38,037 nt of DNA from Flavobacteriales bacterium (GTDB lineage Bacteria; Bacteroidota; Bacteroidia; NS11-12g; UBA955), in NCBI GenBank assembly GCA_947487175.1, contig CANKVM010000018.1:1-38037 (forward strand). Reading direction: 5' to 3'. The notes under the pieces were generated by a model. That model did no database searches. It worked only from the letters and a program-made list of their open reading frames with translations, and was not told where the DNA came from. The stretch's first letter is position 1, and each line of letters opens with the position of its first letter. A program made the translations under genes and the position numbers. Shown here one piece after another: positions 8,251 to 37,953 of the stretch.

Positions 8251-8323
8251 TGATCCCGCTGGGATTCGAACCCAGGACCCATACATTAAAAGTGTATTGC
8301 TCTACCAGCTGAGCTACGGAATC
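8251..8323 (-). tRNA. tRNA-Lys (anticodon TTT)
   Basis: The minus strand folds into a 73-nt cloverleaf. The acceptor GATTCCG pairs with CGGGATC with one G-U pair, and A is the discriminator. The D arm is GCTC..GAGC with AGCTGGTA in the loop. The anticodon stem ATACA/TGTAT carries the loop CTTTTAA, so the anticodon is TTT (Lys). The T arm is CTGGG-TTCGAAT-CCCAG. The 3' CCA is not encoded. It appears to be a single-tRNA unit with its own terminator. Confidence 0.97.
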
Positions 8324-29292: not shown

Positions 29293-29392
29293 AGATTAGA
29301 CGGATTAGACAGGTTATCCCGAAAGCTTTCGGGATAATCTGTCTAAACTTTTATAAACCCTTTACAATCCATCTGTCTAACCCGTCTAATCT
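29293..29392. repeat. Nested inverted repeats built from GTCTAA words
   Basis: An inner hairpin spans 29305-29346: 21-nt arms with one mismatch around a perfect 22-nt palindrome whose halves are TATCCCGAAAG and CTTTCGGGATA. A second pair of 20-nt arms (29293-29312 and 29373-29392, one mismatch) uses the same left arm, so two alternative structures are possible. The words TTAGACGG/TTAGACAG recur on both sides. It lies after the ABC ATPase gene and upstream of the LysM gene, so it may end transcription or be an interspersed REP-like element. GTCTAACC words recur at 37440. Confidence 0.8.
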
Positions 29393-29394
29393 GT

Positions 29395-30894
29395 CTAACC
29401 CTGAATGAGCCACTCCACCGGAATCTCCTTTTCAACTCCTCCATCCAAATAGCACCACTTATCGGCCAAAGATTTTGCAACGTCTAAATTATGGGTGATA
29501 AAGATATATATCAGTTGTCTAGCCAATTGAATGTCCCTCAATAAATCTAAAATTTGTTTTTGTATTAGAGGATCTAATGCGGCAACCGCTTCATCTAAAA
29601 TAAGAACTTCCGGATTGGTGCAAAGCGCTTTTGCAATGCACAATCGCTGACGTTGCCCCCCGCTCATTTGATCGGGTTTTGCATTCATTAATCTTTCATC
29701 AAATCCAACATCATTCAATACTTTTAAAGCCCGTTGATTGATTTCAATCTCTTTTATTTCTGGATTTTTGAGTTCAATAATTTCAGAAACCGCATACACC
29801 GCAGTGTGATTTCTGTTTAACGATGCAAATGGATCTTGAAACACCATTTGAATTCCCGTTGGAGGTTTTGAGGGAATATTGTTTCCGTGTAACTGAATTT
29901 CACCACTGCTTGATTTCTCAAGTGCTACCAATAACTTGGCTAAAGTTGATTTTCCTGAACCAGAGGTTCCAATCACAGCCAAGGTTTCACCCGGTGACAA
30001 GCTCACCGAATAATTATTCAGCGCGTTTACCTGATTTTTACCTTTGCCGTAATATTTAAATACATTTTTTACAATTAAAACATGATTTTGAGGGATATTT
30101 CTTTGTTCTTTAGGCTTTGGTACTGCTTCTAATAATTCAACTACATATGGATGTTGGGGATTATTTATCAGTGAATTGGCGTTACCCTGTTCAATAAGTT
30201 CACCTTTTTTAAGGACAGTTATCTGATTTGCAAACTTGGCAACCAAATCAAGTTCATGGCTTACCCAAATAAGCGCACAGTTCATTTCTTTCGCAAGTCG
30301 GGTAAAATCTTCCATCACCTGATTTCTTGAAAATGAATCGAGTGCGGTGGTGGGTTCGTCGGCTAACAATACCAATGGATTGTGCAATGAAGCCATGGCA
30401 ATCATTACCCGTTGACGTTGACCTCCACTTAATTGATGCGGGAATGATTCCATTACCCTATCAATCATTTGCCCCAATCCCACTTTAACTAACTTCTCAG
30501 TGATTAACTTAATTGCTTCGTTTTTTGTTCCATGTACCAAATATGATTCAAGCAATTGCTTGCCGCATGTCATTTGAGGATTTAAGGCCGACATAGGTTC
30601 TTGGAAAACCATTCCAATTAATTTTCCTCTATACGCTTGAAAATCTTTATTGGAAAGTTTTAGTAAATCAATAAACGTGTTGTTATGCCACAACAAAACT
30701 TCTCCTGAAACTATGAGATTTTTAGGAAGTAATCCAATAATGGTAAGTAGTGTTAACGATTTGCCACTTCCACTTTCGCCAATAATGGAATGGATTTCTC
30801 CAGCATTGCAACAAAGGCTTTCAATATACAGAAGCGTTTTGTTATTAGCTTGAATCCGCAGTTTGTTTATTTGAATGATGGGCTGAAGGCTCAT
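29395..30894 (-). CDS. Fused double-ATPase ABC protein (YejF/DppD-DppF-like)
   Basis: A 499-residue cytosolic protein made of two ABC ATPases in tandem. Domain 1 (about residues 5-260) has Walker A GESGSGKS, signature LSGGQRQR and Walker B LLADEPTTALD. Domain 2 (about 270-495) has Walker A GTSGSGKS, signature MSGGQRQR and Walker B LILDEAVAALD. All nucleotide-binding motifs are intact. Fused proteins of this kind power peptide or microcin C importers (YejABEF, Dpp/Opp). No permease or binding protein gene is adjacent here, so its partners must be elsewhere. Confidence 0.92.
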   Translation of the reverse strand: MSLQPIIQINKLRIQANNKTLLYIESLCCNAGEIHSIIGESGSGKSLTLLTIIGLLPKNLIVSGEVLLWHNNTFIDLLKLSNKDFQAYRGKLIGMVFQEPMSALNPQMTCGKQLLESYLVHGTKNEAIKLITEKLVKVGLGQMIDRVMESFPHQLSGGQRQRVMIAMASLHNPLVLLADEPTTALDSFSRNQVMEDFTRLAKEMNCALIWVSHELDLVAKFANQITVLKKGELIEQGNANSLINNPQHPYVVELLEAVPKPKEQRNIPQNHVLIVKNVFKYYGKGKNQVNALNNYSVSLSPGETLAVIGTSGSGKSTLAKLLVALEKSSSGEIQLHGNNIPSKPPTGIQMVFQDPFASLNRNHTAVYAVSEIIELKNPEIKEIEINQRALKVLNDVGFDERLMNAKPDQMSGGQRQRLCIAKALCTNPEVLILDEAVAALDPLIQKQILDLLRDIQLARQLIYIFITHNLDVAKSLADKWCYLDGGVEKEIPVEWLIQG

Positions 30895-34315: not shown

Positions 34316-34819
34316 TTACTTAATATTTGGTTCACTTTCGACTTTTGGTTTTGGCTTCACCCTCTTCACCTTCATTTTATCGGCTTTTTCAATTAGCTTC
34401 AATCTTATTTCTCTTTCCGCTTTTGAAATTAAAACTATTTTTGTCATTGGCATTGCCAATTTTAATTTTTCACATGCATCTTTAAATAAGTCAATTTCTT
34501 TCTGCTGAAGTGCAATAGCATCATTATAATATTCTAAAGCTTCTGCTTCTGTTAATGTTTCAACTGTGGTTTTTTTCCATTTGTTTCTAAAAACCTTCTT
34601 GGCTTTTTTCAGCTCACTAATATATAAATCGTAAACTGGAAAAAATGCGTTTGACTCAACAGCACTAAGTTTTAACTTTTCAACGAACAAATCCTCTCTA
34701 TATTCCTTTAGCGCATCAATTTGAGCTTCTCTAGCAGAATCTAAAGTTTGAGCATGTATTTGACTTTGAGAAAATACGATAATAACAATTACGAAGAATT
34801 TCAATATAGCTTTCATCAT
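34316..34819 (-). CDS. Periplasmic Spy/CpxP-like small protein
   Basis: A 167-residue protein with a signal peptide (residues 1-23, cut at IHA-Q) and a mostly helical, charged body. The segment 'LKLSAVESNAFFPVYDLYISE' (about residues 50-70) resembles the 'Lt..ea..F.PvY..y' pattern of Bacteroidota Spy/CpxP-like proteins. The C-terminus is a basic Lys/Pro tail. It is translationally coupled (TAATG) to the probable anti-sigma gene. In such trios the third protein often senses or buffers envelope stress. The family call is tentative. Confidence 0.55.
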   Translation of the reverse strand: MMKAILKFFVIVIIVFSQSQIHAQTLDSAREAQIDALKEYREDLFVEKLKLSAVESNAFFPVYDLYISELKKAKKVFRNKWKKTTVETLTEAEALEYYNDAIALQQKEIDLFKDACEKLKLAMPMTKIVLISKAEREIRLKLIEKADKMKVKRVKPKPKVESEPNIK

Positions 34820-36483
34820 TATATTCCTAAATCTTCAAAAAAACCATCTTCTAACTCCAATGTTGTTAATCCATTGTTTTCTAAAACTACAGCGCTAATT
34901 TTAGACTGTTCTGTCAAATTCACAAAGTTGAAATTGTTTTCTACTGCAGAAGGATTTTCTACTTCTGCTAAAATTTCGTTTGCAATAAAGTCTGCAGGCG
35001 CCAACGATAAAGTTTTATCTACATTATCAACAGAAACAGGAGCCTTTACTTGACTCACCATTGGTGTAATTTTGCTATCAATAAATTCATCAATTGCAAT
35101 TGGTTTTTGGATGCTATTCCATATAAACCAAGCCGAAGCAACGGCCATTAAAGATGCAACTATACCAAACACACTTGACCAAGGTATCATTTCCATGATT
35201 GAAGCCTTAGCCTCAATAACGGGTTCGTAACTTGAAGTTGCGGATTCTATGTGAACATTCGTTTCTACAACATTATTAGCAATCACGGCTGGTTCAGAAA
35301 CTCTTGGTTTAGAAGCCTCTATTTCTTTCGACAATTGCTCATGCAATAAATCAAGTTCAGCATCTGTATATTCTCTTTCTGGATCAAATACAATTTCATT
35401 TGTACTAAATTCAACAAATGTGATTGCATGGGTTTCTATTTCAACTGATTGTTTTGGTTGAACCGCTTCAAGCTGTTGCGACAATTGCTCGTGTAAATTG
35501 TCTAAATCCGCATCACTAAATGAATATTCAACCTCTTGGTTGTTTTCTGTTATTGAGGGAAGTTCAATCGTCAAATCTGAAATTTCATTGGATACCTCAG
35601 AAATAACTTCATTTACAATGGGTGCAACTTCAATTGATTCTATTTCACTTACTATAGATGCAACTTCGACTGATTCTATTTCACTTACTATGGGTGCAAC
35701 TTCTACTATCGATTCAATTTCAGGTGTAAATGAAAAACTGAAAAAAGCTTCTTCATTTTGATTTACTTCTACAACGTTTGATATATCATTTATAACAACT
35801 TCAGTATCATTTACAACTGTTACTATATCATTTTGTGGTAATTCTTCACCAATTACAACTAAAGATGTATTTTCTATTTCAATTGATGATGCTTCACTCG
35901 CAACGATATCTAGTTCATTCGATACAGGCGATGTTTCAATTATATCATCGATAACAGTTGGAACTTCGTTTACAACGATTTCTAATTTGTCTTTTTGCAA
36001 GAAATGTTGATCGATATCAAACATTGCATCTCCGTTTATCGTGATGTCAGACATCTCTTGTCCCTCAGAATCTAAAACCAAACCTTCTAACTCATCATCT
36101 GAATTAAAATTGTGCCAGTAAGGATTTGGATTGGCTGACAATTGAATAGGTTCAATATGTATTTGTCCAATTTCATCATCTTTTACCAGATTAGTTGGTG
36201 TGTCATTGATTTCATTAGATATATTGTTCGATTCTACATTCTCTAAAATATTATTTTGCATTGAATCAACTGCATTGTTTTTTTCAGCAGTTAATGGAAA
36301 ACCAAATTCAACAGTTAGCTGAATTGGCTTCTGCTTTTTATTAAATTCTATTTTGGGAGATTTTGCTTCTACAACATTTTTCACTTCAATACCTACGCGG
36401 TTTTGTATGTTGTTTGATAATCCTTGGAAATAATTAGGACTAGGATTGAAAGGCTGATTAATTTTGTTTGATTGAAAATCCAT
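34819..36483 (-). CDS. Probable anti-sigma protein with very long acidic cytosolic region
   Basis: A 554-residue single-pass membrane protein. Its N-terminus 'PFNPSPNYFQGLSNNIQNRV' (residues 11-30) resembles the 'P.gYFe.l...i..Ri' opening of Bacteroidota anti-sigma partners of ECF factors. Residues 60-430 are acidic low-complexity sequence rich in Val, Glu, Ile and Ser. They include a tandem repeat around 256-292 (SEIESVEVASIV-type units) and a duplicated motif ending LHEQLS (320-341 and 370-391). A membrane helix at about 434-457 precedes a short periplasmic tail. It lies between the sigma gene and the Spy-like gene. The role is inferred from position and N-terminus. Confidence 0.6.
   Translation of the reverse strand: MDFQSNKINQPFNPSPNYFQGLSNNIQNRVGIEVKNVVEAKSPKIEFNKKQKPIQLTVEFGFPLTAEKNNAVDSMQNNILENVESNNISNEINDTPTNLVKDDEIGQIHIEPIQLSANPNPYWHNFNSDDELEGLVLDSEGQEMSDITINGDAMFDIDQHFLQKDKLEIVVNEVPTVIDDIIETSPVSNELDIVASEASSIEIENTSLVVIGEELPQNDIVTVVNDTEVVINDISNVVEVNQNEEAFFSFSFTPEIESIVEVAPIVSEIESVEVASIVSEIESIEVAPIVNEVISEVSNEISDLTIELPSITENNQEVEYSFSDADLDNLHEQLSQQLEAVQPKQSVEIETHAITFVEFSTNEIVFDPEREYTDAELDLLHEQLSKEIEASKPRVSEPAVIANNVVETNVHIESATSSYEPVIEAKASIMEMIPWSSVFGIVASLMAVASAWFIWNSIQKPIAIDEFIDSKITPMVSQVKAPVSVDNVDKTLSLAPADFIANEILAEVENPSAVENNFNFVNLTEQSKISAVVLENNGLTTLELEDGFFEDLGI
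35627..35698 (-). repeat. 36-bp tandem repeat inside the probable anti-sigma gene
   Basis: Two adjacent 36-nt units (35627-35662 and 35663-35698) differ at only a few bases, and a third, degraded unit follows from 35699. Each encodes 12 residues of the SEIES.EVA.IV type. The length is a multiple of three, so unit gain or loss would keep the frame. Confidence 0.85.
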
Positions 36484-36496
36484 ATTTACCTCCTAT

Positions 36497-37102
36497 TTAT
36501 CCTAAAACTTTAATATAAATTTCCAATTTTTTAACCGCATGCTGAAAAGTTGCTACTATACTAGATTCTGTAGTTTGGGTTAATTCAGCAATTTCATCAA
36601 AAGATAATCCATCAAAATAATTCAATGTAAAAACCAATTTCTGTTTATAGGTCAAATAGCACATGGCTTTCTGAAATTTCAATTCGTCAGAATTACTTGA
36701 AAGAAATTCATCGGCATTTAAAAAATCAGCAAATTCTGGTTGCGCTTCATCAAAATCAATTTGAGGGTATTTTTTCCTCAGATACCCAATTGTTTCGTTT
36801 GAGGAAATTCGATAAAGATCGGCCTTTAAATTTTCGGTTCTAAATGAATTTAATCCTTCCCATATTTTAACAAATATATTTTGGATTACATCATCAGCTG
36901 CAGTATGACTTTCGAGCATAGTGCGAACATGGTTATATAAAGGCAATTGGAAACGTCTTATTAATTCTCTGAATGCTGATTCAACATGTTCTGCTTTTGA
37001 AAAATAAGAAACAAGTTGAAAATCATCAAGGCGTTGGAAGTTAATTGAAACTTCAGCCTTTTGCATTTTTTCTTCTTTTACTTTTAGCTTAGTAACATTC
37101 AT
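36497..37102 (-). CDS. ECF-type RNA polymerase sigma factor
   Basis: A sigma-70 family ECF factor of about 201 residues from the ATG at 37102. The frame is open to 37162, and an ATG at 37066 after a purine-rich tract is also possible; I prefer 37102 but am not certain. Region 2 is 'ESAFRELIRRFQLPLYNHV' and 'AADDVIQNIFVKIWEGL'. Region 4 is 'TYKQKLVFTLNYFDGLSFDE' with 'IAELTQTTESSIVATFQHAV'. The gene is followed after 13 nt by the probable anti-sigma gene. Self-activation and release on envelope stress are the usual scheme for such pairs. Confidence 0.88.
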   Translation of the reverse strand: MNVTKLKVKEEKMQKAEVSINFQRLDDFQLVSYFSKAEHVESAFRELIRRFQLPLYNHVRTMLESHTAADDVIQNIFVKIWEGLNSFRTENLKADLYRISSNETIGYLRKKYPQIDFDEAQPEFADFLNADEFLSSNSDELKFQKAMCYLTYKQKLVFTLNYFDGLSFDEIAELTQTTESSIVATFQHAVKKLEIYIKVLG

Positions 37103-37200
37103 TATTTTGTGGTTGGTACTGCGAAGATGAATGCATTTTGTTTTATATGTATCATTTGGCATTTGAAAGTTTAAGACATTGGATGTGAATAGCGAAAAAA

Positions 37201-37218: not shown

Positions 37219-37265
37219 TCTTGAATATTAAGTTATTGTTATGCTATTGTTTAAAGTTTATGACT

Positions 37266-37411
37266 TGGCTGTTTACGGCTGCGCCTGTTGACGCCTTTGG
37301 CTGTTGACGCCTTTGGCTGTTGACGGCTGCGCCTGTTGACGCTTCGCTGTTGACGGCTGCGCCTGTTGACGCTTCGCTGTTGACGGCTGCGCCTGTTGAC
37401 GCTTCGCTGTT
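37266..37411. repeat. Tandem array of 14-16 nt units with compensated mini-hairpins
   Basis: Units begin TGTTGACG (TGTTTACG in the first) and end in a short inverted repeat. Three forms occur: GGC-TGC-GCC, GCC-TTT-GGC and GC-TTC-GC. Three perfect 30-nt double units lie at 37321-37350, 37351-37380 and 37381-37410, preceded by single units. One isolated unit with GCC-TTA-GGC stands at about 37464-37480. The array fills the spacer between the rplS 3' end and the ECF sigma gene. Confidence 0.9.
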
Positions 37412-37436
37412 TAATTTCAAGTAGCTAACCTAGAAT

Positions 37437-37552
37437 ATCTGTCTAACCTGTCTAACCTCAAAAGTTTACGCCTTAGGCTGTTTGTTTTATTTAGGTATTC
37501 CCAAAAAACAACCCTCATAAACTTTCAAAAACCCTTATAAACTTTTATAAAC
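37437..37552. repeat. GTCTAACC and TAAACTTTTATAAAC repeat words
   Basis: CTGTCTAACC-type words at 37439-37457 and the 15-mer TAAACTTTTATAAAC at 37538-37552 also occur in the 29293-29392 spacer (15-mer at 29344-29358). On the minus strand, AGTTTATAAGGG and AGTTTATGAGGG are two diverged copies about 23 nt apart. This looks like a small interspersed repeat family. Confidence 0.6.
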
Positions 37553-37584
37553 AAAAAAAGACCTTCTCTCGAAGGTCTTTTTTA
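37553..37584 (-). terminator. Terminator of rplS
   Basis: AAGACCTTC (37558-37566) pairs with GAAGGTCTT (37571-37579) around TCTC and is followed on the minus strand by a T run. It lies about 20 nt past the rplS stop. Confidence 0.93.
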
Positions 37585-37602: not shown

Positions 37603-37953
37603 TTATCTACGACGTAGTTCTTTAATACGGGCAGCTTTACCAATTTGGTCGCGTAGATAGAAAATACGTGCACGACGTACTTTACCTCTACGGTTAATAT
37701 CGATTTTATCGATGAATGGGCTATTGAATGGGAAAATACGTTCTACACCTACACCATTAGAAATTTTACGAACAGTGAAAGTTTCATCAATACCTGAATT
37801 ACGACGTTGAATAACATCGCCTTGGTACTGCTGAATACGTTCTTTGTTTCCTTCTTTAATCTTATAGTGAACGGTAATACGATCGCCCGCCTTGAAATTA
37901 GGAAGGTCTTTTCTTAAAAATTCTTGCGAGATGCTATTTACAATCGAGTTCAT
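37603..37953 (-). CDS. rplS: 50S ribosomal protein L19 (bL19)
   Basis: A 116-residue protein with '[20 protein letters not shown]', '[20 protein letters not shown]' and '[20 protein letters not shown]', the standard bL19 sequence. It sits near the 30S-50S interface. It is a single-gene unit with a strong promoter and its own terminator. Confidence 0.98.

Follow-up and report, generated by a model that had tools for sequence, protein, structure and literature searches.

REPs are short extragenic palindromic repeats with a preference for sites between convergent genes (PMC3733652, PMC3116915), and compensatory changes have been reported in REPINs (PMC3116915), according to the parts of these papers that are cited here. 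A second group, the CGTC-tagged REPs, is likewise palindromic and intergenic, is known from Bacteroidetes too and is presented, in the cited part of its description, as having no dedicated transposase; its members possess stems of 8-9 bp, loops of 4-5 nt, a terminal unpaired CGTC and a CCA-like tail, and mostly form head-to-head dimers (PMC3733652). Tandem repetition of short intergenic words is found in the TAACTGA heptamers of Beggiatoaceae, Cyanobacteria and five Bacteroidetes, direct repeats with a patchy distribution whose mechanism is given as unknown in the cited part of the study (PMC4679880).

The locus considered here is an array of mini-hairpins in the window, that is, the whole analysed stretch of 38,037 nucleotides, which comes from a freshwater member of the Bacteroidota with a genome (G000) of 2.42 Mb in 156 contigs. 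We give an even chance to the reading that this array belongs, as one copy among others, to a REP/BIME-like family which is non-coding and specific to the lineage, folds as single-stranded DNA hairpins and is shaped by slippage, arm-templated correction and recombination. The arrays resemble the GTAG REPs, REPINs and BIMEs associated with RAYTs in being short, extragenic, palindromic, dispersed in many copies and preferentially placed at convergent sites. However, their hairpins are flanked by GTTKAC (complement GTMAAC) and not by a GTAG-type tetranucleotide, the variable stem measures 2-5 bp (4-7 bp only when the pairs beyond a bulge are included) as against 5-13 bp, and the units are arranged head to tail in tandem. 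Moreover, in a search of 14 genomes of the genus, the Y1 transposase domain (Y1_Tnp, PF01797) was found in none of the six genomes that carry arrays and only in G008, which has none, while reverse transcriptase (PF00078) was similarly limited to a single non-carrier (G003); drafts such as these may miss genes, with G000 listed as 100% complete and G004 as 99%. Membership of the REP/RAYT system was rejected on the lack of a Y1 transposase in carriers and of GTAG, as was a retroelement origin on the lack of a reverse transcriptase in carriers. The CGTC-tagged REPs do not match either, as the arrays have short stems, 307 triloops against 23 tetraloops and another arrangement. Since the family is REP-like and yet differs from both GTAG and CGTC REPs, it is filed here as a variant of interspersed palindromic repeats.

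The TAACTGA heptamers share with the arrays the intergenic tandem short words and the patchy distribution, but have no hairpin between words and, in the part of their description used here, lie mostly just upstream of start codons in the best-studied genome. A CRISPR array, in which unique spacers separate identical repeats, is not an appropriate comparison, as the units of 14 or 16 nt are contiguous and have no spacers. Fungal and algal mitochondria have double-hairpin elements and palindrome clusters, which are dispersed small hairpins with compensated stems but differ in being organellar. Integron attC arrays are marked by a GTTRRRY core, together with an integron integrase; by reading, GTTKAC does not fit this core. 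A literature search, limited to open papers, returned no report of a GTTKAC-hairpin family.

The array in the window and its neighbours

The following features make up the locus.

36497 to 37162, minus strand: ECF-type sigma ORF, neighbour of the array
37256 to 37270, plus strand: probable decayed first unit (GTTTATGACTTGGCT), by reading, with the GTTTA anchor kept and the hairpin broken
37271 to 37408, plus strand: hairpin array, nine units in head-to-tail order and 16 or 14 nt long, each GTTKAC, stem (3 or 2 bp), triloop, stem and T
37319 to 37408, plus strand: 30-nt double unit in three copies at spacings of 30 and 30, each a GGC-TGC-GCC unit and a GC-TTC-GC unit
37409 to 37437, plus strand: terminal box GTTTAATTTCAAGTAGCTAACCTAGAATA; most of the listed arrays have a related A+T-rich box after them
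37439 to 37458, plus strand: short 9-nt word repeat (GTCTAACCT), of the word family that forms (GTCTAAYCN)n arrays in carrier genomes
37464 to 37479, plus strand: isolated tenth hairpin unit, GTTTAC-GCC-TTA-GGC-T, apart from the array
37510 to 37552, plus strand: 10-nt word repeat (TTATAAACNN)n, of a word family also found in carrier genomes
37554 to 37583, minus strand: rplS intrinsic terminator, an inverted repeat with a T run, at the edge of the inserted block
37603 to 37953, minus strand: rplS, neighbour of the array

The array opens with GTTTAC-GGC-TGC-GCC-T at 37271, read directly in the window, followed by two units of GTTGAC-GCC-TTT-GGC-T (37287 and 37303), and then alternates GTTGAC-GGC-TGC-GCC-T (37319, 37349 and 37379) with GTTGAC-GC-TTC-GC-T (37335, 37365 and 37395). 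The loop is always of 3 nt, so that the period is 16 nt with a 3-bp stem and 14 nt with a 2-bp stem. An earlier note on this DNA had placed such a hairpin array, with three exact 30-nt copies, in the interval from the rplS terminator to the ECF sigma gene. The nine units, the isolated one, the spacing of the copies, the ORFs and the inverted repeat all bear this out. The units also exceed the shuffled expectation: TGTTKACG occurs 10 times in the window, nine of them in the array (shuffles: mean 1.93, maximum 6), and a 19-mer of the array, allowing up to 3 mismatches, occurs 7 times, always at this locus (shuffles: maximum 1). The shared word that had been proposed does exist; nonetheless, its constant part is GTT[G/T]AC, and the G that follows is the first base of the stem, which is G throughout the window array and A, T or C in other units. 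At the gathering score the array has no match in Rfam, the sole match in the window being a tRNA at 8251-8323. By itself the window array holds few stem types, and the evidence for compensation comes from other loci and genomes.

Unit design and compensated stems

Unit statistics were gathered from the stretches fetched around pattern matches in the six carriers, rather than from whole genomes, by cutting segments between successive GTTNA anchors, which fixes GTT and A in the anchor itself. Of the 359 segments, 307 contained a triloop hairpin with a perfect stem of 2 bp or more, compared with 23% (maximum 29%) after shuffling of letters; among the 144 distinct segments the proportion was 69%, against 42% (maximum 50%) when right halves were swapped. 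No excess of such hairpins was seen outside the arrays in the window and the other loci. There are 29 different stems, from GC/GC up to GCTCA/TGAGC, with a variable part of 2-5 bp. The loop is far less free, being closed by a C-G pair in 287 of the 307 hairpins and reading TNC in 257, which corresponds to GNA with a free middle base on the complementary strand; in a clean set of 293, from which 14 hairpins with more than 3 unpaired flanking nucleotides had been dropped, 252 loops are TNC. The four-base loops (n = 23) are all closed by C-G, and 14 of them read TNNC. With regard to the anchors, 306 of 359 are GTTGAC or GTTTAC.

When hairpins with TN(N)C loops were collected independently of the anchors, 241 of 363 gained two more pairs after one bulged base on either side, in comparison with 154 (maximum 173) for shuffled flanks. 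These additional pairs are usually AC and GT, contributed by the linkers; the unit is therefore a bulged hairpin, and the real spacer between hairpins is about two bases. Stems of 2 bp account for 134 of the 293 clean hairpins. Over all units, GNA loops are more frequent with 2-bp than with 3-bp stems (123/134 against 97/125, p 0.0016), as predicted if the shorter stems depend more on such loops, whereas over distinct units the difference is not significant (p 1.0), and the shared loops could in part be due to common descent.

Among 47 distinct 16-mers, which have 3-bp stems, 94.3% of the pair cells hold standard pairs as opposed to 68.7% after shuffling, and pairing falls to 48% or less in a slid register. 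Double changes fill 40 cells against 16.8 in shuffles (0/500), a count which takes units as independent although they share descent. The outer pair is GC in 25 units, AU in 14, UA in 2 and CG in 1, the middle pair CG in 23 and GC in 22, and the closing pair CG in 44 of the 47. The 42 distinct 14-mers are 88.1% paired, with 8 double-change cells against 2.2 in shuffles. Mismatched intermediates are present, but are rarer than compensated forms. That pairing is kept while sequence changes, as the earlier note had claimed for the window and proposed to check by a covariation test, thus holds across many loci and six genomes with shuffle and register controls, and plain slippage of a single unit is therefore insufficient. 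The further step in that note, from compensation to selection, does not follow, because template switching, in which one arm is copied from the other, would yield the same pattern without selection.

Distribution and turnover among related genomes

The core pattern CTGTTNACGN{3,12}CTGTTNA has 38 matches in G000 and none when reversed. Elsewhere in the genus it is matched 44 times in G012, 19 in G013, 8 in G006, 5 in G004 and 5 in G010, and once in G008; although this amounts to seven of the 14 genomes, the carriers are counted as six because the G008 match has no hairpin of this kind. At the family level 15 of 70 genomes match, eight of them from other genera with one match each, none of which is such a hairpin by eye. 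A stricter pattern was found in 7 of the 108 genomes of the order, namely the six carriers and one match in G030, a member of another genus; in a sample of 395 genomes from the class it occurred in one, the window's own. A scan of named genomes returned 14 stretches, in the MAGs CANFLS01 and CANFVI01 (both labelled Flavobacteriales), CAIRMY01 (Erken), CAMBFD01 and SLDF01; the first four are the carriers G012, G013, G006 and G010, and SLDF01, a Saprospiraceae MAG, has one short instance. Outside the genus these searches thus found single instances only. A viral origin was rejected, as a scan of viral_contigs found no pattern.

In G030, which belongs to the same family, one hairpin unit and 9-mer words lie at C133:886-906 and C138:3704-3736, possibly by transfer or from an older origin. 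The Saprospiraceae instance (locus L100, about 2533-2600) is a short GTTTAC hairpin array with longer, nested hairpins that have TCC loops.

The block between the rplS terminator and the region upstream of the ECF gene occupies the same place in G000, G012 and G013, with differing units, and is decayed in G004; at the same site in G002, G005, G007 and G008 there is no such block. The best ECF matches are 85-100% identical among G000, G012, G013 and G004, 65% in G006 and G010, and lower in non-carriers, which is in line with a single origin in a clade, as judged from these sequence comparisons. Orthology extends to other arrays, which differ between genomes in the number of units and the type of stem. 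The pattern recurs, then, at many loci in the window's own genome and in five other members of the genus, where the earlier note had suggested looking, and the assembly artefact which it had allowed for runs counter to the presence of the pattern in several separate public MAGs and at one orthologous site in three genomes.

The context of the arrays was assessed on 80 array pieces that passed a hairpin filter. Of the intergenic regions that hold them, 51 flanked by an ORF on each side were counted, which left out pieces located at a contig end or within an ORF. Convergent regions make up 17 of these 51, compared with 4 of 35 regions without arrays (p 0.023). Relative to co-directional neighbour genes, the arrays have the same orientation in 11 cases and the opposite one in 18 (p 0.26).

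One site suggests how pieces could move. In G000 (locus L035, 5061-5646) a DUF5615/DUF433 gene pair is intact and adjoins, by eye, a candidate gene for a B12-dependent mutase subunit. In G012 a hairpin array with its tail takes the place of the whole DUF5615 gene and of the terminal part of DUF433, between flanks that are 95-97% identical. G004 has repeat filler from the left junction that is also seen in G012, and G013 has another junction (further loci compared: L183, L184 and L185); since filler occurs in more than one genome, either state may be the earlier one. From this one replacement site we infer that array pieces may spread by copying into other places. No target duplication was recognised at the sites read. 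A comparison of L126 with the window at 28.4-31.2 kb as an empty site was dropped, the upstream genes being just 66% alike.

In L035 (2207-3640, G000 C104) an Xre/RES toxin-antitoxin pair lies between two near-identical compound repeats, in each of which hairpin arrays face inwards towards an A+T-rich middle; a third copy is found in G012 (L113). Also in G012, arrays are very densely packed at locus L114 (C1:125300-138900), a region of 13.6 kb where many of them surround genes for DUF6088, HigB/HTH and sugar metabolism. Integron-like cassettes were considered for the toxin-antitoxin modules flanked in L035 and L114, but not adopted, as the arrays flank housekeeping genes as well.

At the end of most of the listed arrays stands a box resembling GTTTA[A/T]TTT, after which come tandem 9-mers (GTCTAAYCN) or 10-mers (TTATAAACNN). 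The 9-mers were found in 5 of 69 family genomes, G000, G004, G012, G013 and G030, and are absent from the carriers G006 and G010; their counts are 42, 161 and 85 in G000, G012 and G013, against 1, 16 and 3 for the reversed control. The 10-mers (TTATAAAC repeats) occur in 6 of 14 genus genomes, which are exactly the carriers, with a reversed control of 1 in G010. On the basis of these shared distributions, the kinds of repeat largely travel together. A second mosaic of carrier-type repeats lies in the window at 29297-29401, where (GTCTAAYC)n words flank the palindrome TCCCGAAAGCTTTCGGGA and are joined by a TTATAAAC word, without a hairpin array.

Proposed mechanism and competing explanations

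The mechanism judged most likely, and also the most economical, is hairpin-driven slippage with arm-templated correction and recombination, and without a host function. Each unit is a small imperfect hairpin: the linkers supply its outer A-T and C-G pairs, a single bulged base follows, and 2 to 5 variable base pairs lead to a loop of three (or four) nucleotides, which a C-G pair closes. Read on the complement of the window's plus strand, most loops are GNA, a type known to stabilise very small DNA hairpins, and the units would fold when this strand is single, during lagging-strand replication or repair. Folded units would promote slippage, by which arrays grow and shrink, and folding would allow one arm to be rewritten from the other, which would generate compensated stems. 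Pieces could then be copied by recombination or repair to other intergenic sites, at times replacing local DNA, and the two other word repeats would be copied along with hairpin pieces.

In both loop and closing pair the arrays agree with the CG-closed d(GNA) triloops, which form a stable DNA motif according to the part of PMC5815330 cited here. For the 2-bp GCGAAGC unit on the predicted GNA strand, a nearest-neighbour model of DNA folding returns 0 kcal/mol, and in the three units tested it favours the other (plus) strand. Unusual stability also characterises d(cGNNAg) tetraloops and the GCGAAGC hairpin with its 2 bp. Folded in full, the window array does only moderately better than its shuffles, whether as DNA or as RNA and whichever strand is taken (z -2.0 to -3.0); the lowest energy is that of the RNA plus strand, in a fold that is not a row of mini-hairpins. 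The GTTGAC linkers can pair with each other via G-T wobbles on the plus strand, which is the more stable as DNA and as RNA, and from the sequence this wobble pairing may be taken as a point for the plus strand or for RNA. The earlier note had left the choice between DNA and RNA open. DNA is now favoured by the identity of the loops and by the absence of an orientation bias with respect to genes, although folding with nearest-neighbour energies does not decide between the two.

The strongest rival is a dedicated single-stranded DNA enzyme, an HUH-type or other endonuclease that would recognise the bulged hairpin and spread the units, as has been proposed of RAYTs for REPs. The bulged hairpins, constant flank words, loop specificity and frequent one-base asymmetry recall the hairpins bound by TnpA, as depicted in the cited part of PMC6006769, and the CGTC-tagged REPs have also been described without a dedicated transposase (PMC3733652, in the part used above). 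Conversely, the absence of Y1_Tnp from all six carriers, its sole holder in the genus being free of arrays, together with the lack of a GTAG tag and of a recognised target duplication at the sites read, makes such an enzyme improbable. A broader proposal, which we regard as doubtful, is that one system yet to be written up produces all three repeats of word and variable filler (GTTKAC + hairpin, GTCTAAYC + N and TTATAAAC + NN) through one polymerase- or nuclease-based process acting on GNA-loop single-stranded DNA hairpins, and that it also puts repeat filler in the place of small genes, for instance a toxin-antitoxin gene.

A function at the RNA level, in which transcribed arrays would stabilise 3' ends, provide processing sites or bind proteins, would account for the compensated stems, the enrichment between convergent genes and the RNA folding scores (z -3.0 and -2.8). 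We nevertheless hold it to be unlikely: no orientation preference was seen, 2-bp stems alone are expected to be too weak in RNA, TTTC is the sole TNNC tetraloop, among 14, whose complement is GNRA, and the array has no Rfam match. A reading as UNCG RNA tetraloops was rejected by hand, as the perfect register has a 3-nt loop and a 4-nt UNCG loop leaves a mismatch beside one pair. Less plausible again is an array of binding sites, where a nucleoid or regulatory protein would read GTTKAC and CTNCG in the duplex and the palindromes would reflect dimer symmetry; the conserved linker agrees with this (306 of 359 anchors, with GTT and A fixed by the search anchor), yet stem letters and length are free while pairing is kept, and recognition of a duplex does not require a 3-nt loop between the arms. 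An assembly or chance artefact has next to no likelihood, since the repeats, although often near contig ends in draft genomes (G000 C5, C8 and C77), occur in separate public assemblies and in the 9-contig genome of G004, with differing unit content at orthologous sites and reversed-pattern controls of 0 in carriers.

If hairpin-driven slippage and arm-templated correction do underlie the arrays, this would be a bacterial repeat family that keeps the ability to form minimal, extra-stable single-stranded DNA hairpins and not a sequence, and that does so without the transposase held to spread REPs. The many orthologous arrays in close relatives would allow one to ask whether stems change in one-base steps, as under selection, or in both arms at once, as in arm-templated copying.

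Elsewhere in the window, a tandem repeat of 36 nt at 35608-35707 lies within an ORF on the minus strand (34819-36483) and encodes a repeated acidic peptide.
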